IMG/VR virus record: IMGVR_UViG_3300044816_000186
Coordinates: 1 to 33,019 of that record
From: a virus
Reading direction: 5' to 3' (one strand)
Length of the DNA: 33,019 bases
The notes under the pieces were generated by a model. That model was given only the letters and a program-made list of their open reading frames with translations, was not told the origin of the DNA and did not search any database. The position numbers were made by a program, and so were the translations under genes. Each line of letters begins with the position of its first letter. Position 1 is the stretch's first letter. Positions 9,072 to 32,653 of this stretch are shown here, one piece after another.

Positions 9072-9877
9072 GAAATACCCCGCATCTGCAACTCGATCTC
9101 GATCAGGTGGCTGGGATCGGACGGCACCGGCTGCGGATCGTTGATCAGCACGGCGAAGCCGGATTCACGCGGGTAGGTCTGCGGCCGCCAGCCGAAGAAG
9201 AACGGCCGCTCCTGCGCGGCCGCGAGGAAAGGCTCCATCTGCGCGCGATACCAATCCGGATCGAGCAGCATGAACTTGGCCGGCGCCTCGCGGTATTCGC
9301 CGATGACGATGCGGCCGAGGAAATCGCCGCTCTCGGCGCGGCCGTTCACCACGCTGGTCTTGCGGGCGAATTTCAGCGGGGTGTGATCGACATAGAGTCC
9401 GCGCTCCATCACCAGCAGTTTTCCGGCATAGAGCACGGCGGCGCGCGGCGGCGCGGCGCCCGGCTGCAGCCGCAGGATGATTTCGTACAGCGAGCGCGGC
9501 GCGAAGCGGAAGATCACCGGGGCATCGTCCGCCAGGATCGCCGGCTGCACGATCTCGACCGCGGCGGCGCCGGCGGAGGCGCGGCCTTCCACCGACAATG
9601 CGATCGCCGCGCTGCCGAAATTATGCCGCGCCACCGCGATATAATCGAGCGGCGCGGCCGCGTCGGTCAGCAGCGCGACGGTTTGCGCACCGGCATCGGC
9701 GCCGCGCCATTCCAGCGAGGTATTGGGATTGGCGAGATTGCCGACCGGGAAGCCCGCCGCCTCGGTGTCGGCGGTGAGCAGCCCGGCGCTGACGATGTTG
9801 TGCCATCCCACGATCGGGTTGTCGGCTCCGTAGACCTGGACCTCGGAGAGGACCAGGGTATTGGAAAGAACGATCAT
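9068..9877 (-). CDS. Phage tail protein downstream of tape measure, probable distal tail component, 269 aa
   Basis: The protein begins MIVLSNTLVLSEVQVYGADN and is rich in beta strands. Recognisable stretches include NPNTSLEWRGADAG (a discoidin-like 'loss of symmetry' start) and DYIAVARHNFGSAA. In the second half, KTSVVNGRAESGDFLGRIV and ERPFFFGWRPQTYPRE appear. I have seen this combination in proteins that follow the tape measure in alphaproteobacterial siphophages, where they are annotated simply as phage tail protein. Gene order (tape measure, this gene, tail hub) makes a distal tail or baseplate-like protein the best inference. It starts one base after the tape-measure stop and overlaps the hub gene by 4 bases. 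Confidence 0.82.
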   Translation of the reverse strand: MIVLSNTLVLSEVQVYGADNPIVGWHNIVSAGLLTADTEAAGFPVGNLANPNTSLEWRGADAGAQTVALLTDAAAPLDYIAVARHNFGSAAIALSVEGRASAGAAAVEIVQPAILADDAPVIFRFAPRSLYEIILRLQPGAAPPRAAVLYAGKLLVMERGLYVDHTPLKFARKTSVVNGRAESGDFLGRIVIGEYREAPAKFMLLDPDWYRAQMEPFLAAAQERPFFFGWRPQTYPRESGFAVLINDPQPVPSDPSHLIEIELQMRGIS

Positions 9878-14987: not shown

Positions 14988-15593
14988 TTACGCGGCGTAG
15001 ATGCGGTAGGGCGCCAGCAGCGCGTCGGCGCCGGCCGGCAGCAATTGCAGCGCGGCGGCGGTCTCCGCCACTTCGCCGCGATGCTCGTACAAATGCCCGA
15101 CCATGAGCAGGATGGCGTGGCGGATCGGCGCCGGAACCTCGGCGCCGGCGCCGTAGCCGGCGTCGAAGCGCAGGCGCACGGATTCGGGCTGGCGGCGCGC
15201 GGCCGGCCAGGCCTTGCCATAGGCCAGCGCCAGGTAGGCCTGGCCGCGGCCGCCGGCGCCGATGACGCGGTAGTCGGCGGCATCCAGCAGCCGGTCGCTG
15301 CCGGCGGCGTCCGCGTAGGTCAGCGCGATCGGGCCGGCGGCGACCAGCGGCGGCAGCGGCAGCGCGATGAAATTGCAGCCGGCCGGAAACGCCTCGCAGC
15401 GCAGTTCCAGGGTCTGCCGCACCAGGGCGCGGCCGAGCCAGCCGTCCGGCCCGTCGAGCGCGGCGGTGGCGGCCGCGACCAGATGCGCGATCAGCGCGTC
15501 GTCCTCGCCGTGATCGACGCGCAGCTGCGCCTTGGCCTCGTCGAGCGAGACCGCCGGCACGGCCGGCGGGACGATCACGACGACGGAGCGCAT
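14988..15593 (-). CDS. Head-tail connector protein (HK97 gp6/phiE125 gp8-like)
   Basis: The 201-residue protein starts MRSVVVIVPPAVPAVSLDEA and contains KAQLRVDHGEDDALIAHLVA followed by AATAALDGPDGWLGRALVRQ. 'VSLDEAKAQLRVD..EDDALI..L..AA...' is diagnostic for the gp6-like connector/phiE125 gp8 family that docks under the portal ring. A second half with YADAAGSDRLLDAADYRVIG and IRHAILLMVGHLYEHRGEVA completes the family pattern. The gene starts 2 bases after the stop of the upstream small head protein. The DNA is markedly GC-rich compared with the genes to the left (14.97 kb and below), so a module boundary may lie just beyond it. Confidence 0.93.
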   Translation of the reverse strand: MRSVVVIVPPAVPAVSLDEAKAQLRVDHGEDDALIAHLVAAATAALDGPDGWLGRALVRQTLELRCEAFPAGCNFIALPLPPLVAAGPIALTYADAAGSDRLLDAADYRVIGAGGRGQAYLALAYGKAWPAARRQPESVRLRFDAGYGAGAEVPAPIRHAILLMVGHLYEHRGEVAETAAALQLLPAGADALLAPYRIYAA

Positions 15594-15595
15594 GG

Positions 15596-15970
15596 CTATT
15601 TCTTGCCGGGCTTGGCGTCGGTTTTGGTGTCGGTTTTGGGCGCGGCGGCGCGCTTGCCGCCGGAGGGCGTATCGGGGCCTTCCACGCTGGAGGCGCCGCC
15701 GTCGGCGGCAGCAGCCACGGGAACGGAACGGGCGCGGCGGTCGCGGCCGGGCTTGGCGGATTGCGGCGGCGCGGCTTCCGCCTCCGGCCGCAGCACCGCG
15801 ACATCGGCATCGATCGCCGCATCGCGGTGCACGGTCTCGGCCTTGGCGGCGCGCTCGAATTGCGACGGCGTCAGCGGGACGCGCTCGCCTTTGGCAACCC
15901 GCCTTTCGCCACCGTCGTCCCCCTTGAGGATGAATTCGGCGATGAAGGTACGCGTGATTTTCGTGGCCAT
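15596..15970 (-). CDS. Small head-associated protein with low-complexity tail, 124 aa
   Basis: The protein begins MATKITRTFIAEFILKGDDG and has a short folded-looking N-terminal part (1-60: GERRVAKGERVPLTPSQFER, AAKAET). An Ala/Pro/Lys-rich tail follows (70-124) ending KTDTKTDAKPGKK. The start at 15970 is chosen because AGGAAG lies about 8 bases upstream and the preceding codons look untranslated. It lies between the capsid-linked genes and the connector. I do not recognise a family; the 'GERVPLTPSQFERA' element recalls small proteins that annotate phage head genes. A structural or assembly role is inferred from position only. Confidence 0.75.
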   Translation of the reverse strand: MATKITRTFIAEFILKGDDGGERRVAKGERVPLTPSQFERAAKAETVHRDAAIDADVAVLRPEAEAAPPQSAKPGRDRRARSVPVAAAADGGASSVEGPDTPSGGKRAAAPKTDTKTDAKPGKK

Positions 15971-16013
15971 GATGGTCTTCCTTTGAATGAACGGCGCGGC
16001 CGCACCGGATGGC

Positions 16014-16472
16014 TTACCCGCCGACGATCTGATCGACGGAGGCGGCGTTCTTCTTGCTGGCCAGGCCGGCGCGCGGCGCCAGGCCCAGCACCACCGCGGA
16101 AACCAGACTGGCCGCGGTCGCCACCGTGAGCGAAAGCCGCGCATGGCTGAAACCGCCGGCGACGTCGAGATCGACGGCGCGCAGATTGATCAGCGCCTGC
16201 TTGTTCGACTTGTCGGTGCCGGCCTGGGTCAGTTGCGTCAAGGCGCGGCCGGTGACGTCCTTGGCGGCGGTGCCGCTGACGTCCTTGGCCTGCTGCATCT
16301 TGGCGTCGACGGTGGCGGCGTTGCCAAGGGCGCCTGCCTGCACGACGGCAAGCAAGGCGCCGAAGGTCGACATCGGCAGCCAGGCCGTGGTGACGGTGCC
16401 GGCCGCCTGCGAGACCGGGCTGATCACGGCGAGCAAGGCGACCCGTTCGGTGCCACGAGAGGTGTTGAACAT
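16014..16472 (-). CDS. Hypothetical phage protein next to capsid, 152 aa
   Basis: The protein (MFNTSRGTERVALLAVISPV...) is Ala/Val/Thr-rich, with SQAAGTVTTAWLPMSTFGAL then LAVVQAGALGNAATVDAKMQ and DVTGRALTQLTQAGTDKSNK. This last stretch plus QALINLRAVDLDVAGGFSHA matches a small family placed right after the major capsid gene in alphaproteobacterial siphophages, where a minor head or decoration role has been assumed. A GGAG ribosome site lies about 9 bases before the ATG. The gene follows the strong terminator at 16529-16561, so its transcription depends on read-through or a local promoter I cannot see. Confidence 0.78.
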   Translation of the reverse strand: MFNTSRGTERVALLAVISPVSQAAGTVTTAWLPMSTFGALLAVVQAGALGNAATVDAKMQQAKDVSGTAAKDVTGRALTQLTQAGTDKSNKQALINLRAVDLDVAGGFSHARLSLTVATAASLVSAVVLGLAPRAGLASKKNAASVDQIVGG

Positions 16473-16528
16473 TGCAAATTCTCCAGGGAATGCGCGGGGG
16501 AAAAAGGGCTTACACCTTATGCAAACAG

Positions 16529-16561
16529 AAAAGCCCCGGACGCCGGAGCGCCGGGGCTTTT
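16529..16561 (-). terminator. Intrinsic terminator after the major capsid gene
   Basis: A perfect 11-bp inverted repeat, AAAAGCCCCGG (16529-16539) and CCGGGGCTTTT (16551-16561), encloses an 11-base loop. Read on the minus strand the GC stem is followed by four T residues, and the symmetric A/T flanks make it potentially bidirectional. It sits 25 bases past the capsid stop codon, a common place to limit expression of the genes downstream of the abundant coat protein. Confidence 0.85.
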
Positions 16562-16586
16562 CGTCGTATTGGAAGGGCGCCCGGTT

Positions 16587-18056
16587 TTACGCCGGCACCT
16601 CGAGGGCGACGAAGGGCGCCACTTCGTAGCCGTTCTCTTCCTTGATCGGCCCCTGCAGCCAGGGTGAGCCGTCGACGTTCCAGAAGATCTTGATGATGGT
16701 CTTGTTTTCATTGAACAGGACGTGCTCGGAGGCGGCGACGAAGGGGCCGCTGCCGTCCTTGATCAGATAGTAGCTCCAGTCCCCCAGCAGCACGTCGCCG
16801 TAAGCACCAAGCGCGGGCGCCCGGTTGTTCCATTTGAGCGGATAGCCCAGCAGGGTGCCGGCGAAACCGTCGCGGGCATTGGCGATCCAGATGTTGTTGT
16901 TGTTCTCGTCCTTCAAGGTGGCGATCTGCGGCAGCACCGACTGCGGCACCGACCAGACCGGGGTGAGGCCGCGCATCAGGATGCGGGCCACCATGTTGAC
17001 CAGGTCGAGATACTTGACCGCGTTGGCGGTCTGCCGGTTGACCTTGTAGACCGCCGCCGAATTCAACGCGCCGAGCGGCTTGGACACGCCGTCGCCGCGG
17101 ATGAAGGCATAGTCCTCCGCCGCCGTCACCGCGCCGCGCAGCAGATTCTTGATAAAGGCATCCGCCGCCTGCCAGTTGCGCAGCAGCTTGTCGGTCACCT
17201 TCACCAGGCCGGCGACTTCCTGCGGGATCAGCGTGATCTCCAGCAGCTTGGCATCGGTCTCCGGCTTGGTCGCACCTTCACCGATCCACCTCACCTCGAC
17301 GCCGCCGAACATATTGCCCGGATTGCCGCCGGACTGATCGAGCGCCGGCAGCGTCACGCCGGCGTCGGGCGGGTCTCCGGCCGGGATGACGTTGGCGCGC
17401 GGGCGGACGATGGCGTCCTGCGGCTGGACCAGCATGATCTCGGACCGGAACTGCGGCGGGATGGCAAAACCGCCGGAGGCGCCGGTGTCCATGCGCATTT
17501 CCGCGCGCAGCTCGCCGCCGGCGTTGTCGGCGCCCACGCCCTCGACGAAGTGCAGGCGCTGATCGTTGGGATTGAACCTTACGGCGTGCATGAACTGGCC
17601 GAGGCTTTCGAATTCGCGCGCGGCCTCCGGACCCTGCGGGCGCATGATGCCCTGCCGGCGCGCCGCCGCCGGGGTGACGGCGCCGAGATCCGCGGTGCTG
17701 CCCTGCAGCGCGGCCATGCGGTCGATGCGTTTGACCAGCGCGTCGAGCTCGGCCTTCTTGGCGTCATAGGCGGTCTGTTCCTCGGCGGAAAGATCGCGGT
17801 TTTCGTCTTCCGCGATCCTCAGCATGCCGCCCAGCTCGGCCACCAGCGTGGCGCGTTTTTCGCGCAGCGCATTCAAGGTGGTCGAAATGTCCGCCGCCGC
17901 GAAAGCAGCGACCGGACAGATATAGGGCGTCAGCTCGCGCAACGGATCGGACAGGCCGTGGCCGTGCAGGGGCGGAACGCCGAGCGGCAACAGGGCGGCG
18001 CAGACGAGCAGCGCGGCTACCGCCATAAGCAGGGCCGCTTTTCGCTGGATGGTCAT
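16587..18056 (-). CDS. HK97-type major capsid protein with delta domain
   Basis: The 489-residue protein forms the icosahedral shell. Residues about 58-115 (ISTTLNALREKRATLVAELG, ...AEEQTAYDAKKAELDALVKR) are the coiled-coil delta/scaffold domain normally removed by the head protease. From about 195 on the HK97 fold is evident: GASGGFAIPPQFRSEIM, VIPAGDPPDAGVTLPALDQS, VTDKLLRNW, FIRGDGVSKPLGALN, LLGYPLKWNN and FVALEVP. Unusually, residues about 6-32 are strongly hydrophobic (AALLMAVAALLVCAALLPLG), like a signal peptide or anchor. The start at 18056 is nevertheless supported by a GAGGA site (18064-18068) seven bases upstream. It follows the protease after 92 bases and precedes a terminator. Confidence 0.95.
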   Translation of the reverse strand: MTIQRKAALLMAVAALLVCAALLPLGVPPLHGHGLSDPLRELTPYICPVAAFAAADISTTLNALREKRATLVAELGGMLRIAEDENRDLSAEEQTAYDAKKAELDALVKRIDRMAALQGSTADLGAVTPAAARRQGIMRPQGPEAAREFESLGQFMHAVRFNPNDQRLHFVEGVGADNAGGELRAEMRMDTGASGGFAIPPQFRSEIMLVQPQDAIVRPRANVIPAGDPPDAGVTLPALDQSGGNPGNMFGGVEVRWIGEGATKPETDAKLLEITLIPQEVAGLVKVTDKLLRNWQAADAFIKNLLRGAVTAAEDYAFIRGDGVSKPLGALNSAAVYKVNRQTANAVKYLDLVNMVARILMRGLTPVWSVPQSVLPQIATLKDENNNNIWIANARDGFAGTLLGYPLKWNNRAPALGAYGDVLLGDWSYYLIKDGSGPFVAASEHVLFNENKTIIKIFWNVDGSPWLQGPIKEENGYEVAPFVALEVPA

Positions 18057-18063
18057 ATCGAAA

Positions 18064-18068
18064 TCCTC
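18064..18068 (-). promoter_or_regulatory. Shine-Dalgarno site of the major capsid gene
   Basis: GAGGA on the minus strand lies 7 bases before the ATG at 18056. It decides the start of the capsid gene in favour of the version that carries the hydrophobic N-terminal stretch, since no comparable site precedes the later in-frame candidates. Confidence 0.65.
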
Positions 18069-18148
18069 ATGACGTGAGCCGGCTCGACGACTGCGTCCGC
18101 GCGCGCCGGTATGCGGGCGGCCGCCTCTTCCGAATGGGGAAGGATTTG

Positions 18149-19072
18149 CTAATTCACAGCGCGCAGGCCGAGCGCGCGGCGCTCGCGCGCCGGCGCCAGC
18201 GCCTTGCGGCCGGGCGTGGGCGGCGGCTCCAGCGAGGCGCCGAAGCGCCGCAGGGTTTCATCCAGCGTGCCGATGCGGTCGATCATGCCGGCGGCGAGCG
18301 CGGCCGGCGCCAGCAGCATGCGGCCCTGGCCGTAATTTTCGCGCACGGCCGACAGCGTGGCCTTGCGGTTGCGCGCCAGCGCCGCCACGAAGGTGCCGTA
18401 GACCTCCTTGACCTGGGCCCGCTGGTATTCTTTCGCCGCGTCGGACAGCGGCAGGAAATTCGCGCCTTCGCCCTTGAATTCCGGCTCGCCGATCAGCGTC
18501 TTCTTGACGCCGGCTTTTTCCAGCGCGGCGCTGATGTCGTCGTGCACGCCGAAGACGCCGATGGAGCCGACCGAGCCGCTCGGCGTCAGCACGACCTCAT
18601 CGGCCGCGGAGGCGATCCAATAGGCCGCGCTGGCGGCGGTGGCGTTGACATGCGCGACGATCGGCTTGCCGCCGCGGGCGGCGAAGATCTGCGCCGACAG
18701 CTCATCCGCGCCGGCGGCGGTGCCGCCCGGAGAGTCGACGTCGAGCACCACGGCCTTGACCTGGTCGTCAGCCATGGCCGCGCGCAGCATGGCGCCGAAC
18801 TGCTCGCAGCTGGCGCCGCCGCCGCCGGAAATGTTGCCGACCAGGTTGAGCCGGTTGCCGATGACGCCGCGCAGCGGCAGGATGCCGATGGCGCCTTCGC
18901 GCTTGGCGACGGCCTGCTCCTCGCCCTTGCCGATGCGCGCCGCGATCTCCTCGGCGTTGAACTTGCCGCCGGCCGCCTGCATCGCCAGCAGGTCGAGCAT
19001 CGCCTGCAGCTTTTCCGGCTGCATCGCCCACAGCTCGGACGCGGCGGCCAGCAATATGCGCGCGTATTTCAT
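18149..19072 (-). CDS. Head maturation protease, S49/SppA-like
   Basis: The 307-residue protein cleaves the capsid delta domain and itself during head maturation. The ClpP/SppA fold is clear: GILPLRGVIGNRLN, then VKAVVLDVDSPGGTAAGADE, PIVAHVNATAASAAYWIASA with the nucleophile Ser in TAASAAYW, PSGSVGSIGVFGVHDD, and FKGEGANFLPLSDAAKE with the likely catalytic Lys in EFKGEGA. This Ser/Lys arrangement is the S49 family type found in HK97-like phages. It overlaps the portal gene stop by one base (TGATG) and precedes the major capsid gene, the standard portal-protease-capsid order. Confidence 0.95.
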   Translation of the reverse strand: MKYARILLAAASELWAMQPEKLQAMLDLLAMQAAGGKFNAEEIAARIGKGEEQAVAKREGAIGILPLRGVIGNRLNLVGNISGGGGASCEQFGAMLRAAMADDQVKAVVLDVDSPGGTAAGADELSAQIFAARGGKPIVAHVNATAASAAYWIASAADEVVLTPSGSVGSIGVFGVHDDISAALEKAGVKKTLIGEPEFKGEGANFLPLSDAAKEYQRAQVKEVYGTFVAALARNRKATLSAVRENYGQGRMLLAPAALAAGMIDRIGTLDETLRRFGASLEPPPTPGRKALAPARERRALGLRAVN

Positions 19073-20325
19073 CAGGCGACCTCTTTCATCGGCGCGGCGG
19101 CGGCAGGCGACGGCAGCTCATCGCCGCCGTCCATGCGGTCCTGCTCTTCCAGTTCGCGGACTTCGTTCTGCGTCATCCAGCCGCGGCCGCCGCCGGAGCC
19201 GAGCGCCTGCGAATAATAGGCGGCGCGGCCGGCCATATCGCCGCGCATGATCGCGTTCATGTTGTGCTTGACGTAAAGGCCGCGTTCACGCTCGGGGGAC
19301 GTGAACAGCTTCCAGTTATATTCCTGCTCCCAGGCGCCGATCCAGGGGCTGATCGTTTGACGGACGAAGCCGATCATCAGCTGCTCGATGCCGGTGCCCC
19401 AGGCCGTGGTGCCTTGTTGGCTCTGCAGCAGCACCAGCGGCACGTCATACATGCGCGCGAACTCGGCGATCTGGAATTCGCGGCTGCCGATGAACTGCGC
19501 ATCCTCGGGCGGAATGGTGGTCTGGATGAAGCGCATGCCTTCTTCCAGCACTTTCACCCGATGCGCATTGTCGAGGCCGCCTTGCTTCTCCAACCGCGCA
19601 CCCGGGCTGTCCGGCGGAGCGTCCTCTTTCTTGCCGCCGAGATTCTGCATCGCCTGGCCGGACAGCTTGCCCGGATGCATCAGGAAGCCGCCGCTCTTGG
19701 CGTCGTTGGCGAAGAACTTGCCGCCGAATTTTTCCATCGCCAGCGCCATGCCGACCGCCTGGCGCGCCAGCGCGATCTGCGAGCGGCCGACATAGCCATC
19801 CTGCGAGAGATCCATGACGTGCAGAACGTTGTCGTGGTCGATCGGAAAGTTATGGCCATCAATGACGGTGTGATAGCGCAGCCTGCCGTTTTCGCGCTTC
19901 GGCGTGGTGTTCCACGGGAGCAACGGATACAGGCCGACCGCCTCGCCGCGGCCATTGCGCTCGATTTCGCAATAGCCATTACCCCACAGCAGCGCATGAC
20001 CCTGAACGGTCTTGCGAAGTGTGCGCGACGACATAAAATCGTTCGGCCGCAAACCGAGACGGCCGGACAGCGGGTGCTGGGTGACCGCAACCGACCCGCC
20101 ACCGGCCTGTTTCTCGAAAATACCAACCGGAAATTGGGCGAGCGGATTCGCAATCCGGTTCACGCAAGCATAGACAACCGGCAAATAGAGCGCGGAATGC
20201 TCCGATACATCCATGCCGGCATCGGTTTTGCCGCCGCCGATTATTCGCAGCAGCCAGTGGTTGGGATCGCCGACCGATTGCGACGCGCCCGCGGCCGCCG
20301 CCATGAGATTGAGCCAGTAGCCCAT
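19072..20325 (-). CDS. HK97-type portal protein
   Basis: The 417-residue protein forms the dodecameric ring for DNA entry. Typical portal stretches are LPVVYACVNRIANPLAQFPV, GHALLWGNGYCEIERNGRGE, LYPLLPW, VLHVMDLSQDGYVGRSQIAL (the 'iHi.g.s.DG..G.Spi' motif), EFQIAEFARMYDVPLVLLQ and TISPWIGAWEQEYNWKL. I chose the ATG at 20325; a TTG at 20334 overlapping the terminase stop (TTGA) is an alternative and would add MNP. The C-terminus (ELPSPAAAAPMKEVA) is flexible. It lies between large terminase and head protease. Confidence 0.95.
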   Translation of the reverse strand: MGYWLNLMAAAAGASQSVGDPNHWLLRIIGGGKTDAGMDVSEHSALYLPVVYACVNRIANPLAQFPVGIFEKQAGGGSVAVTQHPLSGRLGLRPNDFMSSRTLRKTVQGHALLWGNGYCEIERNGRGEAVGLYPLLPWNTTPKRENGRLRYHTVIDGHNFPIDHDNVLHVMDLSQDGYVGRSQIALARQAVGMALAMEKFGGKFFANDAKSGGFLMHPGKLSGQAMQNLGGKKEDAPPDSPGARLEKQGGLDNAHRVKVLEEGMRFIQTTIPPEDAQFIGSREFQIAEFARMYDVPLVLLQSQQGTTAWGTGIEQLMIGFVRQTISPWIGAWEQEYNWKLFTSPERERGLYVKHNMNAIMRGDMAGRAAYYSQALGSGGGRGWMTQNEVRELEEQDRMDGGDELPSPAAAAPMKEVA

Positions 20326-20330
20326 CGGAT

Positions 20331-22157
20331 TCAAATCTCGATTTCCACGATGCCGCGTTGCTCGTAAACTGACGGGCCGTCCGCCGCCACCATCGCCAGC
20401 GCTTCGTCCATCACGCCGGCGACGATGCCGTCGATGGAATTCTTCTGGCCGGACTTTTTCTTCGCCGGCACGAAATTCATGTTTTCGTCGAAGCGCACGT
20501 GGCAGTGGCCGGCCATCCAGCGCGCGACCGGATGGCCGCCATGGCCGAGCTCGCCGGCATAAACCCGGCGCTCGAATTCGCGCGAGGCCTCGCCCAAAGT
20601 GCGGGTGCCAAAACGCATTTCGGTGAACAGGTCCTCCGGCAGCGCGGTGGCGTCGTCGCCGGCGGGCGGATTGACCAGCCGGTTATAAAATTCCTTCGCG
20701 CCCCAGGAGTCCCAGCCGATCTTGCTGACGTTGAAACGCTGGCAGTATTCGCGCGCCGCCTTCACCGCCCAATCGCCCGAGAACACGCCGCCCGGCACCT
20801 CCTCGATGGCGCCGGCGTCGCGCCAGCGGTCGAACGGCACCTGCTCGGCGCGCACGCGCTGCTCGATGGTTTCGGACGGCAGCCAGAACTTGAACAGGAA
20901 CTTGGGATGCTCGCCGGCTTCGATCGGCTTGAAGCGCAGCACCATGGCGGCGAAATCGAACGACCAGGTGGAGTCGAAGGCGAGCACGCATTCGCGCCCG
21001 TCCAGCTCGTCGGTTTCCTGCCAGCGCTTCCACGCCTGCTTGTCGGGCGCGCAGGCATCCCACTTTTTCAGCGGCAGCCAGCGGGTCAGGTCCTCGACCC
21101 ACTGATTCAAATGGTAGCGGCGGAACGCGGCCTCGCCCGATGGCGTCTGCGCCTTGGCGAATTCGCTGCGCAGGAACTGTAGCGTGGGCGATAGGCCGAG
21201 CGACGGATTGGCCTGCGCCCACACCTTTTCGTCGCGCCAGTCCGACTCATCAGCGGCCGCGAAAATCACAATCAGCGTGGTGGGATCCTCGATGCGGCCA
21301 TCCAGGATGGCCAAGCTCTCATCCCACAATTCCTTGCCCACCAGCTGCGAGCGCAGACCCGCGGTTGAAGCGTAGAGCCGGGCCGGCTGCAGCGAGGTGC
21401 CTTCGCCCTGGCGCAGGGTGTCCGACAGCGTGCGGCTTGGCCATTCGTGCATTTCATCGCCGACCGTGACAGTGGGCGCGCGGCCATGCTTGCCTTTGAC
21501 CTTGCCGGGCAGCAGCCGGAACGGCGATTTCAGCTTCTGGATCCAGAGCGTCTTGGAAAGAACTCGGACGTCCTGCGCCAGCGTCGGCGTATAGGCGACC
21601 ATGTCGCCCATCTTGTCGAACACCTCGCGCGCCTGCGCTTCGTCATGCGCGAAGCAAAAACCCTGGCCGCGAACCTCGCCCTCGAGCGCCCAGAACAGCA
21701 GCGCCAGCGCGGCGAGAAATTCCGACTTGCCGTTCTTGCGCGGGATCCAGAGCCGCAGCTCCTGGAACAACCGGACATGCAGCGTGGTCGGCAGGCCGCT
21801 GTCTTCGTCGAGCACCTCGATCGGCCGCTTCCAGCCGACGAAGAGGCGGACGATCAACTCCTGCCAGAAAGCCAGACGGAACGGCTTGCCGGCGAAGCGC
21901 TTGGTGGTCAGGCAGAACGTGCGCGGCCACATCGCCACCACGGCATCGGCCTTGGCGGCGTCGAACCATGCGCCTTCCACCGCCGCCGCGCGCCGCCATT
22001 CGACGCGCGCCCAGGCATAGCCGTATTCATCCGCCGCGCGGGTGATCCACTCCGGTTCCGGATGCAAGCAGGCCGGGGTGCCGGCGGCGAGCGCGGCCGC
22101 CGACACGCGCGAGCGCTTTGCGGTTTTTGCTATCGCGGTCGCGGTTGCCGGGGCCAT
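20331..22157 (-). CDS. Terminase large subunit (HK97-like)
   Basis: The 608-residue protein is the packaging motor and DNA-cutting nuclease. The ATPase part has a Walker A variant PRKNGKSEF (about 139-147), the adenine/Q-region before it, and Walker B TVTVGDEMHEW with Asp234/Glu235. The RNase H-like nuclease domain starts with LAFDSTWSFDF (Asp395). Its far acidic residue is in NSIDGIVAGVMD (about Asp576), a typical 'IDg..A..ma' end. The family is the Terminase_1 type common with HK97-like portal and S49 protease. It starts 20 bases after the small subunit gene. Confidence 0.97.
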   Translation of the reverse strand: MAPATATAIAKTAKRSRVSAAALAAGTPACLHPEPEWITRAADEYGYAWARVEWRRAAAVEGAWFDAAKADAVVAMWPRTFCLTTKRFAGKPFRLAFWQELIVRLFVGWKRPIEVLDEDSGLPTTLHVRLFQELRLWIPRKNGKSEFLAALALLFWALEGEVRGQGFCFAHDEAQAREVFDKMGDMVAYTPTLAQDVRVLSKTLWIQKLKSPFRLLPGKVKGKHGRAPTVTVGDEMHEWPSRTLSDTLRQGEGTSLQPARLYASTAGLRSQLVGKELWDESLAILDGRIEDPTTLIVIFAAADESDWRDEKVWAQANPSLGLSPTLQFLRSEFAKAQTPSGEAAFRRYHLNQWVEDLTRWLPLKKWDACAPDKQAWKRWQETDELDGRECVLAFDSTWSFDFAAMVLRFKPIEAGEHPKFLFKFWLPSETIEQRVRAEQVPFDRWRDAGAIEEVPGGVFSGDWAVKAAREYCQRFNVSKIGWDSWGAKEFYNRLVNPPAGDDATALPEDLFTEMRFGTRTLGEASREFERRVYAGELGHGGHPVARWMAGHCHVRFDENMNFVPAKKKSGQKNSIDGIVAGVMDEALAMVAADGPSVYEQRGIVEIEI

Positions 22158-22177
22158 GCATCACTTCTGCTCGCTGA

Positions 22178-22843
22178 TCAATTTGGTTTTCCAGGCGACG
22201 GCGTGTCGAGACGCGCGAGCGAGCCGACCATCGAATTCGCCTCATCGTCCGCCGGCGGCGCATGCGGCGTTGGCTGCTGCGGCTGCGAGCGCACGCGGCC
22301 GAACAGCGTTTCCTCGTCCGCGCGCATCGCGTGTTCGCGGATCAGCTTGTTGCGGTCGAGCGGCGTCAGGCCGTATTTTTCCGCCAGGTCGAGCATCATC
22401 TTGGCGGCGAAGTCGCGGCGGCTGACGGCGGGATTTTCCCGCAGCATGATTCCGGATTTGCCATCCTTGCCCTTGGCGATGGTCGGAACGCCGACCGAAT
22501 AGCCCTTGTCGAGGATGTCGCGATTGGCCAGCACGAATTCGGCGGCGTAGATGCAGAACATCGCGAAGGTGTAGCGGTCGAGCGTGGTCAGCAAATGCAG
22601 CTTGTCGAGCCGCGGCGCGTATTCGCGCCAGATGATGGTGGCCGGCGCGAGCCGCTTGTCCTCGAGGAAAATCGGCAGCGCCTGGATGTCCGCGCCGGTG
22701 CCGGCCTGCGCGAGCAGTTGCGCGTCGCGGGCGGCGGCGCGTTCCATTTTCGCCAGCGCGATTTCGGTCTTGTTCTTCCGCTTGCCCGGAAAGCCCTTGG
22801 CCTTCTGGTCCCGCGGATCGTCAGCGCGCCGTCCCCGTGCCAT
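22178..22843 (-). CDS. Terminase small subunit, P27-like
   Basis: The 221-residue protein recognises phage DNA and hands it to the large subunit. The N-terminus is basic (MARGRRADDPRDQKAKGFPG, KRKNKTE). It is followed by LPIFLEDKRLAPATIIWREY, APRLDKLHLLTTLDRYTFAM and FCIYAAEF, the 'a...W...ap.L...g.lt..D...la.yc..w..y' pattern of the P27 family. NPAVSRRDFAAKMMLDLAEK and YGLTPLDRNKL complete it. The ATG at 22843 is chosen because CGGAG lies just upstream; longer readings run through the palindrome at 22862-22886. It is the first gene of the late operon. Confidence 0.92.
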   Translation of the reverse strand: MARGRRADDPRDQKAKGFPGKRKNKTEIALAKMERAAARDAQLLAQAGTGADIQALPIFLEDKRLAPATIIWREYAPRLDKLHLLTTLDRYTFAMFCIYAAEFVLANRDILDKGYSVGVPTIAKGKDGKSGIMLRENPAVSRRDFAAKMMLDLAEKYGLTPLDRNKLIREHAMRADEETLFGRVRSQPQQPTPHAPPADDEANSMVGSLARLDTPSPGKPN

Positions 22844-23007
22844 GTGCTCCGTCCGTTGAAACACTGTGGGGAAATTCCCCACAGTGATGCGCGCGCCCCC
22901 CAAAAAAAACATTTCGCCGAATTTCGCGACCAAAAAAGAAGGGTTACACAACCGGTCCGGGGGGAAAACACGGCGACTTTTGCCCCCCCTCCCCCTCAGT
23001 GGTGCAA
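22844..23007 (-). other. Leader between HNH endonuclease and small terminase genes
   Basis: These 164 bases contain no gene. Read on the minus strand they hold G-rich runs just after the HNH stop (GGGGGAGGGGGGG), a stretch with T6 (near 22935) and T8 (near 22903) preceded only by weak stems, and then the 25-bp palindrome described separately. I could not identify convincing -35/-10 elements. The T-runs could be weak terminators or simply an AT-rich opening region. Confidence 0.5.
22862..22886. promoter_or_regulatory. 25-bp palindrome upstream of the small terminase gene (copy A)
   Basis: Two perfect 12-base arms, CACTGTGGGGAA and TTCCCCACAGTG, flank a single central A. The element ends 18 bases before the terminase ATG, just upstream of its ribosome site. 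A near-identical copy lies before the NusG-like gene (24253-24277); I noticed no others in the window. It may be an operator for a dimeric regulator or, as RNA, a hairpin with an AAUUU loop. There is no T-run after it on the minus strand beyond TTT, so a terminator is less likely. Confidence 0.75.
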
Positions 23008-23421
23008 CTACCCCCGCTCGCCACCGCCCAGCAGTTCGAGGGTCAAGGCGATGGCCGTCGCACTGTCGAGGCGCAGGTCAGCCATTGTCGCCTTGCCTTG
23101 CGCATACAGCAGCTCGAGCTTCTGCTTGACCACGTTGTGGTGCCAATCGCAGACCGCCTGCCAGTTGGCGCTATCCCAGAACAGCCCCGCCTCACCCTTG
23201 TGCGGGACCACGTGATCCACCGTGCTTGCCGCCTTGATGCGCCCGATGGCCTCGCATCCCAGGCAGAGCGGATGCTCCGCCTTGTAGGCCTTGGCGCCGC
23301 GGTCCCACGCCGCGCTATAGCCGCGCCGCCGCGCGCTGCCCCGGCGGCCGTCGTATTCCTTGACTTGTTGCGATGGCGCCGGCGCATGCCGCGCGCGGAA
23401 CAGCTTGGGCCGCGCAGGCAT
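23008..23421 (-). CDS. HNH endonuclease
   Basis: The 137-residue protein has a basic N-terminus (MPARPKLFRARHAPAPSQQV; RGSARRRGYSAAWDRGAKAY). It then carries the HNH core: zinc pair Cys53/Cys56 (LCLGCEA), the catalytic VDHVVPHKG with Asp69-His70, Asn86 in SANWQAVC, and Cys91 with DWHHNVVKQ (His94/His95). In HK97-like phages an HNH protein encoded next to the terminase genes stimulates terminase cutting at cos sites, and the position directly before the small terminase fits this. It is preceded by a purine-rich ribosome site (AGGGGG). Confidence 0.93.
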   Translation of the reverse strand: MPARPKLFRARHAPAPSQQVKEYDGRRGSARRRGYSAAWDRGAKAYKAEHPLCLGCEAIGRIKAASTVDHVVPHKGEAGLFWDSANWQAVCDWHHNVVKQKLELLYAQGKATMADLRLDSATAIALTLELLGGGERG

Positions 23422-23445
23422 CGACGCCCCCTACCTAAACGGCAA

Positions 23446-23469
23446 CGGCCCCGGTGGATGCCGGGGCCG
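23446..23469 (-). terminator. Hairpin between the NusG-like and HNH genes, possible terminator
   Basis: A 9-bp perfect inverted repeat, CGGCCCCGG (23446-23454) and CCGGGGCCG (23461-23469), has a 6-base loop. On the minus strand it is followed by TTGCCGTTT, a poor U-tract, so it would be a weak or conditional terminator. It ends 24 bases before the HNH start codon. Confidence 0.45.
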
Positions 23470-23492
23470 CTTGCGGAATTGCGCTGCCAAAC

Positions 23493-23547
23493 GCGTGATT
23501 TGGCGCGTGATCGTGTCCGTGATTGAAAGCGTGATCGGCGGCGTGAT
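23493..23547. repeat. Five 12-bp tandem repeats (GCGTGAT + 5)
   Basis: GCGTGAT occurs at 23493, 23505, 23529 and 23541, with the variant CCGTGAT at 23517, all in exact 12-base register. The spacers (TTGGC, CGTGT, TGAAA, CGGCG) are not conserved. The array begins at the stop codon of the NusG-like gene and lies upstream of the HNH gene. The regular one-turn-plus spacing suggests a cooperative protein-binding array rather than coding repeats. Confidence 0.8.
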
Positions 23548-24224
23548 CAAAGCTTTTCGATATCAGCGATAGACAGCTCGACGAGGTTTTGCCGCCCGAA
23601 CAGAAAGACCCAGATACTGAGTCTCGCGCTCTGGTCAAGCTTGTCCACCGGAACGTCGGGGACGGTTTCCACGCTCCCGTTAAACCCGGCGAAGCTTCCA
23701 TTGCGAATACGCACCTGCTCTCCCACCTCGTACATGAACTGTTTCAAAGAGACGCCGGCAACGATTTCGCCATTACGCTCGCGCGCCATCAATTCGTCGA
23801 TTGCAACGTCGTCGATGTACGCGGGCTGTGGGACAGAACTTTCCCCATCGCAGATCAAACCCTGCACCCCCAGCAGCTTGAAAACCTCATGGCAGCGCGG
23901 GTCGCAAAGATCGAGCCGGAGGAACGGATAACGCGGAAATAGCGCCACCTCGACTGACCGCATGATCGGCACGCCGCTGTTGCGCTGGCTTGGTGCCAAC
24001 AGCCGTTTCGGCGTCGCGCGCAGTTCAAGGCATTGCGGAATGTAAATATCCCAATCGCTGATCCGCTTCACAACATCTCTCACTTTGGCATCCGGCGCGC
24101 CAACACAATGCGCGGCATACCAATGTCTTCCCGCCAGCCCGCGCTTGGTCAGAATTTCAGTACGCACCACTTCCCACGGTCTCATTGATTTCGGCTTAGC
24201 GTGTTCTTCTTTGGTCTTGATCAT
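23547..24224 (-). CDS. Phage-encoded NusG/RfaH-family transcription elongation factor
   Basis: The 225-residue protein has an N-terminal extension of about 32 residues. An NGN-like domain follows (about 33-150: HWYAAHCVGAPDAKVRDVVK; IYIPQCLELRATPKR; VALFPRYPFLRLDL; CHEVFKLLGVQGLICDG), then VPQPAYIDDVAIDELMARER. A KOW domain comes last (about 165-225: YEVGEQVRIRNGSFAGFNGS, then WVFLFGRQNLVELSIADIEK). 'F.GEQVRI..G.FAGF.G.V' and 'f.R...vels...ie' are core NusG signatures. Members bind RNA polymerase and modulate pausing and termination; specialised paralogues such as RfaH and LoaP drive read-through of long operons. The GAGG site six bases before the ATG supports the start. It lies between replication and late genes, with matching palindromes upstream of it and of the terminase. 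Confidence 0.88.
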   Translation of the reverse strand: MIKTKEEHAKPKSMRPWEVVRTEILTKRGLAGRHWYAAHCVGAPDAKVRDVVKRISDWDIYIPQCLELRATPKRLLAPSQRNSGVPIMRSVEVALFPRYPFLRLDLCDPRCHEVFKLLGVQGLICDGESSVPQPAYIDDVAIDELMARERNGEIVAGVSLKQFMYEVGEQVRIRNGSFAGFNGSVETVPDVPVDKLDQSARLSIWVFLFGRQNLVELSIADIEKL

Positions 24225-24252
24225 TCACTGCCTCGTTTTTCCGGTACCGCGA

Positions 24253-24277
24253 CACTGCGGGGAAATTCCCCACAGTG
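24253..24277. promoter_or_regulatory. 25-bp palindrome upstream of the NusG-like gene (copy B)
   Basis: CACTGCGGGGAA and TTCCCCACAGTG flank a central A; one base (24258) departs from perfect symmetry and from copy A at 22862-22886. One further outer pair (A24252/T24278) extends the arms. It ends 28 bases before the ATG at 24224. Conservation of both arms and of the centre in two leaders argues for a shared regulator or shared RNA structure. Confidence 0.75.
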
Positions 24278-24369
24278 TTTCCGGGAGAGACCCGGGAGGA
24301 TGAAAACGTCCGTTCAAGCAACCCTCCCGCTTCGTTTGCATCGGTAAAACCTGAGTCTTTGGAGTCACT

Positions 24370-24542
24370 TGGGATATTTGGGAGGATTGGGAGCTTGTTT
24401 CCAAGTGACCCTGTCGCGCGCCCCCGCGCGCATGCGTGAGTCCGCCATGAAAAAAGCTCCCAATCCGCCCACAGTCTCCCAATGTCAGCAAAATCAACGC
24501 ACTGCACGCGCGGCCAGCCTCCCAAAACCGGGACCATGGGAG
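24370..24542. repeat. Cluster of TTGGGAG motifs with interlocking inverted repeats
   Basis: TTGGGAG occurs at 24378-24384 and 24387-24393 on the plus strand and as CTCCCAA at 24457-24463, 24476-24482 and 24519-24525; TTGGGAT (24370) and ATGGGAG (24536) are near-matches. The wider form is roughly WTTGGGAGNNT. Two copies extend to a 13-bp inverted repeat, GGATTGGGAGCTT (24384-24396) with AAGCTCCCAATCC (24454-24466). GTCACTTGG (24364-24372) pairs with CCAAGTGAC (24401-24409). Two more TTGGGAG copies lie within the helicase gene at 26240 and 26301. The arrangement looks like iterons or an operator array. Confidence 0.7.
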
Positions 24543-24544
24543 GA

Positions 24545-26503
24545 TCAACCGATAAATTCATCACTCCCGTCACGCTCGCCAGCCGACGCATCGGCGGCAG
24601 AGCGCGGCCGCCCGCTGAGGTCGATGAAGTCGCTCTCCGCTCTGATCAGTTTGATGTCGAGCCAGAACATCACGCTCGACTTGTCTTTCTTGTAGCCGCG
24701 CTCGGTCATCGCATTGGCTAAGCCGCGGTGCTTCCATTCGGTGCCGCCATTGGCCTGCGCATGCGCGTTGAACACGGCCAGCAGCTTGCTCGACTGTACT
24801 TTCTCGCCGACCGCCGCCACCACGCAGGCTTCCAAGAAGCGGCCGAGCTGGTCGCTGTCGCGTCGATATTCCGCCGTCGCCTGTTCCACCTCGTCGGGAA
24901 ACACCAGTCCGTGTTCCATCCAGTCGGAAAGGCCGTCCAGCATCCAGTTCAAGATGCCGGAGGCTTCGCCCCGCAGCTTCTTGGTCAGCATGCGGTCACG
25001 TTCTTCCTTCGGGATCATCACCAGCCACGGCACCAGCTTGATGCGGCTCCAGATGCCCTCGTCAGCGCCGCCGATCTTCGGGCGGTGATTGCCGGAAACC
25101 GTAAGTTTCATGATTGGGACGAAGCGGAACATCGGAAGATTGAGATTGCGCGCCTGGATCGGCTCGCCGCCGGTCACCAGCTTGATGAAGCCTTCGTCGA
25201 AGCTGACGCCCTTGTTCGGCTCTGACGTCCGCACCATGCGCGCGTTGTAAAGCAGAGCGCGCGCCGGCGTCGGCGCATTGGCGTTGGCTTCGCGGCCGCT
25301 CGCCAGGAAAGTTTCTATCGGCACGGTCTCGGCATAGTCGCCGCCGACATGCGAGGTGGAATCCTCAAACACGGATTTGCCGTTGCGGCCGCCGCCGATG
25401 AACAGCGCGATGCAATGCTCGCTGGCATCGCCGGTCATCGAATAGCCGCGCCATTGCTGCAGGAAGCGGCGCATTTTCTCCGGCGGCTGCACCCGCTTGA
25501 GGAAGGCGTCGAATTGCGGGCGCTCGGCATCGGGCTTGAACGCGACCGGCGCCAGCTTGGTGATGAGGTCGGCCGGGTCATGCGGCTTCAGCCGGATATA
25601 GTCGCCATAGGCCAGCCAGCTCTGCCAGTCGCCCTGCTCTTCGCTCCAGTCGCGCCGGCAGACCAGCGTGCCGTTGGCCACGTTGATCATCATCGGATCG
25701 GCGTCGAGCTCGGCGGTGTTGACGGTCAGGTAAGCCCCGGCGTTTTTTTCGATCGAGACGATCTTCGAATTGGCTTCGGACTTGCGGCCCCAGGCGGCGA
25801 GCCGCACCGACAGGCCATCCAACAGTTTGATGCGCGCCTTGGCCTTGGCCGCGGATTCCTTTTCGGCTTTTTTGTTTTGCGCGCCGGCGGCTTCCTTGGC
25901 GGCGGCGTGTTTCGGCTTTTGCTTCCCGCGCGCTCCCAGTCCCTGCATTTCCGCCGCCAGCGCCTTGGCCTCCAGCTGGATCGCACGGACAGTTTCATGC
26001 TCCGCCCGGCGCACCACCTGGTCGGCGCCATCGCGGCTCCAGCGCTGGCCGTCCCACCACAGCCAGCCGATGGCCTGGCACCACATCAGCTTCCCGCGCT
26101 GGCGCTCGACGAAGCGGTCGGCATTGCCGAGATCGGTCAGTGGAAAAAATCCGAGGCGGCGATTGAGCGCGTCCGTGCTTTCATTGGTCGCGCGCCCGCC
26201 CCTTTCGCCCCAACCACGCTGTCCACCACTTCCTCCCGTTTGGGAGCTTGCCGGTTGCTTACCCGCTGCAAGCGGGTCGGCATGCGAAAACGCAGAAGAA
26301 TTGGGAGGGTCGGAGGAGCGGGAAGCAGCCGCGGCGGCGGTGGCGACGGCATCGGTCGGGGAGGCAGGAAAGGATCGGCCGCGCGGCTTCGCCGGCGCGC
26401 CATTTTTTTGCAAAGGGGAAGAGTCGGTGATCGCCGGCCGCAGCGGCGCCGCCGCGTCGTCCACGATGCGCAGGATCGCGGCGATGGCTTCCTGCCGGGT
26501 CAT
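24545..26503 (-). CDS. D5/P4-family replicative helicase (SF3), primase-helicase C-terminal type
   Basis: The 652-residue protein unwinds DNA for phage replication. Residues about 1-110 are low-complexity. The D5_N-like region spans about 115-360 (FFPLTDLGNADRFVERQRGK; LTVNTAELDADPMMINVANG; KRVQPPEKMRRFLQQWRGYS). The SF3 ATPase core shows Walker A GGGRNGKSVF (about 370-379), Walker B-like ARMVRTSEPNKG (Glu about 428), motif C KLTVSGNHRPKI (Asn about 472) and an arginine-finger region DEGIWSRIKLVPW. No AEP primase domain is present; priming is supplied by the preceding Toprim gene. The ATG at 26503 overlaps the stop of a 12-codon bridge ORF. A Lys/Ala-rich insertion (about 190-225) is odd. Confidence 0.93.
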   Translation of the reverse strand: MTRQEAIAAILRIVDDAAAPLRPAITDSSPLQKNGAPAKPRGRSFPASPTDAVATAAAAASRSSDPPNSSAFSHADPLAAGKQPASSQTGGSGGQRGWGERGGRATNESTDALNRRLGFFPLTDLGNADRFVERQRGKLMWCQAIGWLWWDGQRWSRDGADQVVRRAEHETVRAIQLEAKALAAEMQGLGARGKQKPKHAAAKEAAGAQNKKAEKESAAKAKARIKLLDGLSVRLAAWGRKSEANSKIVSIEKNAGAYLTVNTAELDADPMMINVANGTLVCRRDWSEEQGDWQSWLAYGDYIRLKPHDPADLITKLAPVAFKPDAERPQFDAFLKRVQPPEKMRRFLQQWRGYSMTGDASEHCIALFIGGGRNGKSVFEDSTSHVGGDYAETVPIETFLASGREANANAPTPARALLYNARMVRTSEPNKGVSFDEGFIKLVTGGEPIQARNLNLPMFRFVPIMKLTVSGNHRPKIGGADEGIWSRIKLVPWLVMIPKEERDRMLTKKLRGEASGILNWMLDGLSDWMEHGLVFPDEVEQATAEYRRDSDQLGRFLEACVVAAVGEKVQSSKLLAVFNAHAQANGGTEWKHRGLANAMTERGYKKDKSSVMFWLDIKLIRAESDFIDLSGRPRSAADASAGERDGSDEFIG

Positions 26504-30492: not shown

Positions 30493-30674
30493 GCCGCCTC
30501 GCTTTCGTCGCGCGCGCGAAAGCATGGCGGCGGCAGCAGCAGCACCACGTCGCTCGGGATCAGGCCGGCCACGCTGTCCTCGTGGGGGCGCCAGCCGTTC
30601 CACAGCCAGACCGGCGCTTCCGGCGCCGGCACATAGAGCCCACGCGGGCGGTGGCGGGCGAGGCGGCTGATCAT
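30489..30674 (-). CDS. Hypothetical small protein, 61 aa
   Basis: MISRLARHRPRGLYVPAPEA is followed by PVWLWNGWRPHEDSVAGLIP and SDVVLLLPPP. The protein is Trp/Pro-rich with no known motif. It is accepted as real because it fits exactly between two methyltransferase genes with ATGA overlaps on both sides. Longer readings through the upstream gene are unlikely. Confidence 0.65.
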   Translation of the reverse strand: MISRLARHRPRGLYVPAPEAPVWLWNGWRPHEDSVAGLIPSDVVLLLPPPCFRARDESEAA

Positions 30675-32653
30675 TCGGCCGCTTCCTGCGCCGCCGCCTT
30701 CGACGCCTTGGCGACATTGCCGCGCCGGCGCAGCGGCGGCGGCACCCCGCCGGCGAGCGCGACGACATCCTGCCAATGCTGACGGATGGCTTTCTCTTGC
30801 TCTTCGTAATGGCCGCCCCACGGCAGGCGGTTTTCGAATTTGCCGCAGGTGCAGGTCGCCACGCTTTGGCCGTCCGGATTGGTCATCGTGACCGGATGAT
30901 CGAGCGAGGCCTCGCAGGCGGTGCAGATGCCGGCATCCCGCTCCGACCAGGCGCAGCCGCCCGGGCAGGCCTGGTCTTGGGTGCAGCCGCAGACCCGGCA
31001 GGATTTTGCCTTTTTTTCCCTCTCGCTTTTTTCTTCCCTCCCCCCTTGCGGGGGAGGGTCAGGGAGGGGGGTCGTTCCGGCCGCCGCCGCCAGCTCGAGC
31101 GCCGCGTCACGCGCTTCCGCCGGCGCGTGCTTACCGACCTGGTCGCCGTGGCAATCCCACAACGGGCCTTCGCCGCCGGTCGAGAAGATCGCGGCATACC
31201 GCGCCGCCGGCGTGACGCGCTCCACCAAGCGATAGAACTCTTCCGGCTTCTGCGAATTCGCCCGCCGCGGCGCCGGTAGGAACGTGGTCGGCGGGTCTTT
31301 CCCATAGACATCGATCAGCGGCTTGCCGCGCGTCAGCAGAATCACATGCTCGGTCTGGTCGCGCAGTACCTGGCCGCGACCGATCCTGTCCTTCTTCCAG
31401 GTCAGCATGGTGACCGGCTGACCCTTGGCATCGTCGTCGGCCTTGCCGCCGACAAGCGCGACATCGAAGCCCAGCGCGGCGATCACATGATGCGCGTAGC
31501 CTTTCACCAGATGATGGTTCGGCACATGCAGCCACACCGAGCAATCATCGGCGAGGATCGGAACGATCTGCTCGCGCGCGAACTTGCAGCAGGATTTGAT
31601 CGACATTTCTGGATAAGGCCGGAAGCTGCGGCCGGCGGCGTCAATCGCCTCCTGCTCCTTCTCGCCTTCGGCCGGCCACGGAAAATCGACCGACACCGTT
31701 TTGTAGGGGCCTTGCATCGGCAGTGGCGGCGGCGCTTTGCGGAGCGCATCAGTCTGCTGCATCACCTTCAGCCGCTTATGCGGGCCGTCGACCCGGCCGC
31801 TCTTGTCCATGTCGGCTTTCAGCTTGCCGAATTTTTTCGGGTTCTGTTCCGCCGCCTCGACGATCTCCTCCGCCTTCGCCAGGGTCTTGCGGTCCTTGCC
31901 GACGAAGCGCGCGGCGTGGTCGGCGGCGCGGCCCTTGGCCTCCGCCTTCGCGGCCTTGCGCCCGGGCGCGGAGCCGCCGTGCTTGCGCTGGCGATCCTTC
32001 GCCAGCTTTTTCAGCTGCGCCTCGATATCGCGCTTGATGGCGACGGCTTCCGAGGGGGTGAAATCCTTGCGTTCGGCGTTCTCGTCCCGTTCGCCGGCGA
32101 CGATGGAATCGATATCGACCACATGCACCGGGATCGGCTGCCGGGCGAAGCGCGAGCGCGCCCAGGCCTTCATGCGGCGGTCGCCGGCGATCAGCTTGTC
32201 GTGCCCGTCGATGACGATCGGCTGCAGCAGCGCGCCGCGGGCGTCGATCGAGCGCGCCAGGGCGGCGATATCGCCATAGTCTTTGCGATGCCGGCGCCCG
32301 ACCTTGATCTGCGAAAGTTCGCGCGTGTCCTGGCCGAGCCGGCGGCGCGCCGCGGTTGCCAGATCCTCGCCCTTGCGCAGATCCAGCGGTCCGCCGAAGC
32401 CCGAGGTCGGGCCGGTGAGCATGAAAGTGGCGCGCGTGCGCTTGGCTTTGCTGGCGCGCGGCGCCGCCGCCGGCATCCGCCCGCCAAGGTGCTTGTCCTT
32501 GATCTTCGGACGATTGCTCGACGTCAGAGTCGCTTTGAAGGTCGGCGTGAACGCGAAGGCCTTTCGAGATTTTACTGTCCCGCGCGCGGGCTTCCTGTTC
32601 GTTTTTGCCTTCACCTTATGCGCCCGCTTCCCCTTCGCCGCTTTTTTCGTCAT
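30671..32653 (-). CDS. ParB-like/MT-A70-like adenine methyltransferase fusion with C-terminal cysteine cluster
   Basis: The 660-residue protein has a basic N-terminus, then a ParB/Srx-type domain (about 113-220: YGDIAALARSIDARGALLQP; IVIDGHDKLIAGDRRMKAWA with GDRR at 157-160). An MT-A70-like methyltransferase domain follows (about 316-500: YKTVSVDFPWPAEGEKEQEA; CSVWLHVPNHHLVKGYAHHV; EHVILLTRGKP; KPEEFYRLVERVTPAARYAA). The catalytic motif reads DFPW (323-326) instead of DPPW. A linker contains the peptide encoded by a GC palindrome (about 532-540). It is followed by CRVCGC...CPGGC...CTAC and CTCG (552-603), a probable zinc-binding cluster common in phage proteins. It likely modifies phage DNA at N6-adenine. 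The start overlaps the previous stop (ATGA). Confidence 0.88.
   Translation of the reverse strand: MTKKAAKGKRAHKVKAKTNRKPARGTVKSRKAFAFTPTFKATLTSSNRPKIKDKHLGGRMPAAAPRASKAKRTRATFMLTGPTSGFGGPLDLRKGEDLATAARRRLGQDTRELSQIKVGRRHRKDYGDIAALARSIDARGALLQPIVIDGHDKLIAGDRRMKAWARSRFARQPIPVHVVDIDSIVAGERDENAERKDFTPSEAVAIKRDIEAQLKKLAKDRQRKHGGSAPGRKAAKAEAKGRAADHAARFVGKDRKTLAKAEEIVEAAEQNPKKFGKLKADMDKSGRVDGPHKRLKVMQQTDALRKAPPPLPMQGPYKTVSVDFPWPAEGEKEQEAIDAAGRSFRPYPEMSIKSCCKFAREQIVPILADDCSVWLHVPNHHLVKGYAHHVIAALGFDVALVGGKADDDAKGQPVTMLTWKKDRIGRGQVLRDQTEHVILLTRGKPLIDVYGKDPPTTFLPAPRRANSQKPEEFYRLVERVTPAARYAAIFSTGGEGPLWDCHGDQVGKHAPAEARDAALELAAAAGTTPLPDPPPQGGREEKSEREKKAKSCRVCGCTQDQACPGGCAWSERDAGICTACEASLDHPVTMTNPDGQSVATCTCGKFENRLPWGGHYEEQEKAIRQHWQDVVALAGGVPPPLRRRGNVAKASKAAAQEAAE
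31036..31058. repeat. GC-rich palindromic repeat inside the methyltransferase linker
   Basis: CCCTCCCCC (31036-31044) and GGGGGAGGG (31050-31058) form a 9-bp perfect stem with a 5-base loop (CTTGC). It continues into AGGGAGGGGG (31061-31070). I recognise this as the interspersed palindrome that yields 'PLPDPPPQGGR'-type peptides in many alphaproteobacterial proteins. It is in frame and does not break the gene. Confidence 0.75.

Follow-up and report, generated by a model that had tools for sequence, protein, structure and literature searches.

A NusG paralogue between the replication and packaging genes of Hyphomicrobiales phages: a candidate late antiterminator beside a separate candidate operator

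The presence of a NusG/RfaH-type gene at the border between the replication and the virion genes of a phage raises the question of what such a protein does there and through which site it acts. The stretch of DNA analyzed here (the window) is a whole IMG/VR virus record of 33,019 bp, which is probably incomplete; its features are collected in Table 1. The original prediction held that NusG recognizes a palindrome lying just ahead of both its own gene and the small terminase gene, and in this way allows RNA polymerase to traverse the late operon. We arrive at a different reading, to which we assign a probability of roughly one half (0.52): two separate devices, namely a NusG that would act as a late antiterminator at terminator-linked sites and a distinct dyad operator that would tune nusG and terS. 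Related loci are denoted by L-numbers.

Table 1. Features of the window, ordered from the replication genes to the late operon.
Feature	Positions	Strand	Basis
ParB_N / MT-A70 fusion protein, candidate palindrome binder	30671-32653	minus	PHROG, domain and relative searches
D5-type primase/helicase, upstream of nusG	24545-26503	minus	Pfam, PHROG
CCTCCC/GGGAGG iteron-like array around an alternating GC core	24278-24544		sequence
Palindrome copy upstream of nusG, CACTGCGGGGAAATTCCCCACAGTG, half-sites CACTGTGGGGAA and CACTGCGGGGAA	24253-24277		kept in L259 at 9495-9519
Phage NusG paralogue (NGN + KOW), 225 aa	23547-24224	minus	Pfam, PHROG, PDB sequence matches, AlphaFold + Foldseek
Five RATCACG direct repeats, 12-13 nt apart, from the nusG stop codon on	23490-23549	minus	sequence
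GC-rich terminator-like hairpin directly after nusG, weak T-tract	23444-23471	minus	terminator and folding scans
Degenerate copy of the terminator-linked motif, CCGTTTAGGTAGG	23430-23442	minus	read from sequence
HNH endonuclease, first gene past the nusG terminator	23008-23421	minus	PHROG
HNH-terS spacer with CCGGACCGGTTG and T-runs kept in L259; possible cos region	22887-23007	minus	position
Palindrome copy upstream of terS, CACTGTGGGGAAATTCCCCACAGTG, perfect dyad, odd centre	22862-22886		kept in L259 at 11137-11161
Small terminase subunit (terS), start ATG 22843	22178-22843	minus	Pfam, PHROG, L259 comparison
Strong intrinsic terminator after the capsid gene, within the late operon	16529-16561	minus	terminator scan
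Terminator-linked motif, CATAAGGTGTAAG, after the capsid terminator; family consensus CATAGGGTRTGCGG	16509-16521	minus	motif scan

By sequence and predicted fold the protein is firmly placed in the NGN-KOW superfamily, with both domains represented. Its ORF is matched by PF02357 (NGN) at 23.4 bits (cut-off 22.2) and is assigned to PHROG 6386 'transcription antiterminator', and residues 89-224 match E. coli NusG in a search of PDB sequences. A structure prediction of the two domains had been proposed together with the original prediction, and Foldseek recovered both folds from the AlphaFold model: the NGN domain resembles RfaH (chain 8pen_P, TMt 0.74) and the C-terminal KOW beta-barrel resembles the E. 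coli NusG CTD (2jvv, TMt 0.80, 42% identity). The original assignment as a NusG/RfaH-type gene was thereby borne out. The protein stays below the cut-offs of both the housekeeping NusG equivalog TIGR00922 (57.2 versus 135.7 bits) and the RfaH equivalog TIGR01955 of NCBIfam (32.5 versus 144.5 bits). In one lineage of these NusGs (L036, L038, L028, L105, L039, L040, L024, L104, L033, L021 and L102) the KOW domain is missing, and NGN is followed by a Lys/Arg-rich stretch of low confidence and then by a short conserved C-terminal segment. If the phage NusG is indeed a late switch, KOW-less lineages would reveal which part of the protein such a switch requires.

We have gathered related phages from viral contigs and bacterial genomes by a profile search with the D5 primase next to nusG; among the hosts on record are Bradyrhizobium, Mesorhizobium, Tardiphaga, Xanthobacteraceae, Beijerinckiaceae and Lichenifustis. 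After removal of duplicates a D5 relative was found in 176 loci, 42 of which, all among the closer D5 relatives, carry a NusG-like ORF just 3' on the same strand. With the window included, at least 43 phages, mostly of Hyphomicrobiales, have NusG placed after the D5 primase and ahead of the terminase genes. Phages that lack NusG have other genes after D5, such as a DUF6362-like gene (L073), a gene with a weak DUF6456 match (L047) or a ParB-like gene (L023), so that the position looks like a slot for late regulators. The window NusG, used as a query in viral contigs either as a single protein or as an alignment, proved too divergent for a direct search. Matches to NusG in a collection of named phages were set aside: the annotated ones that we examined were host nusG genes on misfiled bacterial contigs, and the rest are unannotated.

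The region behind nusG is clearly enriched in terminators. A hairpin with a T-tract occurs within 350 nt past the nusG stop codon in 24 of 43 loci, versus 96 of 860 (11%) random same-strand windows (Fisher p 1e-11), and in several relatives two terminators stand in tandem ahead of the HNH gene and terS. The strong terminator that had been proposed behind the capsid gene was located as well. NusG in the late slot, followed by terminators and then by packaging genes, is the arrangement expected of a late antiterminator. The part of the original prediction that makes NusG a late-gene switch is therefore upheld by the gene order in dozens of phages, whereas the part that makes the palindrome its target is not (see below). 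On this basis we lean towards regarding the phage NusG as a late antiterminator. More specifically, the protein would be expressed at the close of the replication block and ride the host RNA polymerase as a late regulator, letting it pass the intrinsic terminators directly behind nusG and again within the late operon. In the window, the weak T-tract of the nusG terminator and the degenerate motif copy that follows count against this explanation.

A short motif is linked to these terminators. In the relatives many terminators behind nusG precede CATAGGGT and similar sequences. Within 24 nt past sense-strand terminators ATA[AG]G[GT] is present in 16 of 66 cases in loci with NusG and in 0 of 83 in loci without it, and behind antisense terminators of the former in 0 of 29; these counts are exploratory, the motif having been found after looking, and they are not independent, because phages with and without NusG partly fall into separate subclades. 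An independent test was provided by a scan of 2.9 million viral contigs with the pattern GGGCTTTTN{2,9}CATAGGGTR, for which no protein reference was used. The pattern occurred in 56 stretches, with a GC-rich hairpin ahead of the T-tract in 32 of them. In 24 of these 32, some of which belong to the D5 clade already sampled, a same-strand NusG ORF precedes the element by 58-651 nt, as compared with a baseline of 1 in 73 loci of other phages that were recruited via distant ParB relatives. Of the eight hairpin-backed matches without NusG, five are truncated less than 500 nt away by the end of their stretch. In 12 of the 24 NusG-adjacent stretches none of the window genes used gave a match, but many of these 12 are short. 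Across the 45 elements listed, which include tandem copies within one phage, the common build is a GC hairpin, TTTT, about 4 nt and CATAGGGTRTGCGG. This motif is the most likely candidate for the cis element of the phage NusG system; its placement downstream of the terminator would suit a pausing or loading site that serves the stretch beyond, a component of the terminator, or a transcript start.

Several other elements were noted in the same region. Repeats of ATCAC or CCACC are found in L057, L054, L017, L027 and L034 at the place equivalent to that of the RATCACG repeats of the window. In L033-L040 and L026, GCCCTCCTTGGGCGTTTCCTCCCTAGACTT is conserved past the nusG terminator and is followed by another hairpin and then by the HNH gene; it is a candidate cos site, and the HNH-terS spacer of the window is, by its position, possibly a cos region too. 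The iteron-like array directly after the D5 gene probably represents the replication origin, and its last iteron abuts the nusG copy of the palindrome; the iteron sequence in this spacer varies among the phages (CTATCCC in L054, CCTTCC in others). No Rfam family was found within 15500-25500.

The palindrome occurs before nusG and terS as had been described, and no third copy is present in the window. The two 25-bp copies are 24/25 identical, and no other near-perfect palindrome in the window reaches their length. A search for their 19-bp core that tolerated up to 3 mismatches found these two sites only in the 33 kb, and none in 100 shuffled sequences; four further viral contigs contain the core in T4-like or coding contexts and have no NusG, which we took as chance. 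The odd-centred dyad reads CACTGTGGGGAA-W-TTCCCCACAGTG and ends about 28 nt before the ATG of nusG and about 18 nt before that of terS. The nusG copy has one asymmetric base, a change of T-A to T-G on the nusG strand. Differences between half-sites, for example CACTGT, CACTCC and CACTGC, are neither mirrored nor G.U-biased. A manual reading of the window and five relatives gave ten asymmetric half-site positions, of which only two are G.U. They are confined to 6-9 bp from the centre, a clustering with p 2e-5. The changes break RNA pairing yet keep the bipartite DNA half-site CACTNNGGGGAA. Being asymmetric and not G.U-biased, they favour a DNA operator over an RNA hairpin, and their clustering points to a bipartite half-site with a loose middle. 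The palindrome was rejected as an intrinsic terminator since it has no T-tract, and its centre, GAAUUUC, lacks the UNCG loop of a LoaP-type hairpin.

How the palindrome relates to NusG can be judged from the related phages. According to the original prediction, NusG would read the palindrome in the nusG and terS leaders, either as RNA or as a hairpin of the non-template strand, load there and antiterminate the late operon. The immediate proximity of the palindrome to both genes is in line with this, its RNA form folds well, and a leader hairpin is indeed required by LoaP, another NusG paralogue (PMC12691694). In addition, the two-copy state is preserved in the sister phage L259, which has the palindrome at both places and exactly two copies in 34,951 bp. 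The two phages share 81% identity in TerL, 80% in DnaG, 74% in TerS, 73% in the ParB N-domain, 70% in HNH and 52% in D5. Their NusGs, however, are only 29% identical over 120 aa, having diverged too far to give a protein match in that record, so the palindrome was kept while NusG diverged. A palindrome of the same type is found about 280-305 bp past the D5 stop codon in five relatives with NusG (L054, L057, L017, L022 and L340), and at the matching D5-relative position in L023, L047 and L032, of the same clade, whose whole records, which may be fragments, gave no NusG match. In L016 it lies about 2.1 kb past D5, just ahead of another gene; at least six tandem CAGCCACCCTGG repeats are located upstream of it (L016 12772-12855). 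Quite different leader dyads are seen in L017 and L027, whose NusGs resemble that of the window more, and no second copy was found near the terminase genes of other NusG phages. Thus, the palindrome is neither limited to NusG carriers nor does it change with NusG, and its presence in phages lacking the gene is an outcome that had been named in advance as speaking against recognition by NusG. Together with the asymmetric changes this makes an RNA hairpin read by NusG very unlikely, and we have discarded it. A simple dimeric repressor or activator site, which had been offered as an alternative, fits the asymmetry and the decoupling better, and quite likely the palindrome serves as a DNA operator without being recognized by NusG.

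The operator would be a dyad with half-site CACTNNGGGGAA and centre W, placed beside the replication origin and before terS, and bound as a dimer by another phage protein, thereby co-regulating the transcription of nusG and the terminase genes. No sigma-70-like promoter was found at either palindrome site, which counts against this explanation. The foremost candidate for this protein is the ParB-like/MT-A70 fusion, an assignment that we make tentatively. An orthologue is present in 7 of 7 testable palindrome phages and in 0 of 21 others (18 others were taken in the statistical test), an association in which shared ancestry may have a part. The ParB_N domain of the window protein scores 19.0 bits, below the cut-off of 26.3; the ParB carriers L048 and L263 are without such a palindrome, and L062 and L073 have even-centred palindromes and lack this ParB. 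The correlation of half-site similarity with ParB identity (rho 0.60, p 0.12, n = 8) is no more than suggestive. The same protein could also bind the palindrome as a parS-like or origin-linked site for replication or partition, with the second copy beside cos and no role in transcription. The fixed distance from the D5 stop codon, the contact with the iteron array, the orthologue that tracks the palindrome and the possible cos spacer next to the terS copy all agree with such a site; the displaced copy of L016 and the position of both window copies immediately upstream of ribosome-binding sites argue against it, and we consider it rather unlikely. For the terminator-linked motif a late promoter or transcript start behind the terminator, with NusG acting elsewhere, has to be weighed as well. 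A position directly 3' of terminators and 5' of the HNH and terminase genes would suit a promoter. Nevertheless, promoter-like hexamers are absent from 22800-24600, the tandem copies of CATAGGGTRTGCGG each have their own hairpin ahead, and one copy lies mid-operon, past the capsid gene, all of which renders the promoter unlikely.

The expression of nusG seems to be controlled in other ways in other phages. A different leader, with a hairpin GTTC-N7-GAAC and a near-constant 7-nt loop ('group B'), is shared by 22 NusG phages, the window not among them, and shows two-sided changes in 7 of 9 pairs. As a site for NusG it was rejected, being confined to nusG leaders and absent from the window. In 22 loci a conserved hairpin, CCAGCA-N-UCGA-loop-UCGA-N-UGUUGG, overlaps the ribosome-binding site of nusG (e.g. 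L020:11027-11057). One of its pairs is G.U in 17 of the 22, which points to RNA, and it looks like a translational control element. Both leader hairpins suggest control over nusG expression.

Returning to the two-device reading, terminators in NusG phages often carry the downstream CATAGGGTRTGCGG, and a widespread phage NusG family might, somewhat speculatively, constitute a new class of late switch. Its members would each act at one or more terminator units (GC hairpin, U-tract, CATAGGGTRTGCGG), located immediately past the respective nusG gene and in some cases repeated in the late operon, with KOW replaced by the Lys/Arg-rich tail in some lineages. The open papers that we searched describe no phage NusG as a late-gene regulator. 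If the reading is right, a paralogue of the universal elongation factor of the host serves the phage as late switch, and the short linked DNA element makes the prediction and testing of targets direct.

Specialized NusGs have been described that serve operons for capsules, toxins, antibiotics and conjugation (PMC12691694, PMC7819879, PMC7593976), and rfaH-like genes have already been noted on prophages (PMC7593976). LoaP of Bacillus velezensis acts through an UNCG-type RNA hairpin in the leader, ahead of the terminator (PMC12691694). The phage system resembles it in having a NusG paralogue that adjoins its presumed target operon, intrinsic terminators in the leader and a proposed processive antitermination. 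It differs in that its element lies downstream of the terminator, in its setting in a phage late operon and in a palindrome without UNCG loop. It speaks against the proposed reading that the known loading sites (nut, ops and the dfn hairpin) are upstream of the terminators they overcome, whereas CATAGGGT is downstream. With RfaH the window protein shares the NGN and KOW domains, although it stays below the RfaH equivalog cut-off. A minority of the linked elements, none of them in the window, have the form TGCGGTAG, which comes close to the ops core GGCGGTAG; the likeness is partial. ParB-fold fusions are common in phages (PMC12704722). The palindrome is similar to operators of the ParB/KorB type in that the phage has a ParB_N protein and a long palindromic site in one or two copies, whereas the site is unlike known parS and the candidate binder is an MT-A70 fusion. 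Finally, the position of the phage nusG matches the arrangement of the lambda regulators. In the N/nut and Q/qut systems the regulator gene likewise stands at the border of a gene block, with a terminator directly behind it and the later genes beyond. Lambda N and Q are not homologues of NusG, and N partners with the NusG of the host, whereas the candidate regulator in the window is itself a NusG paralogue.
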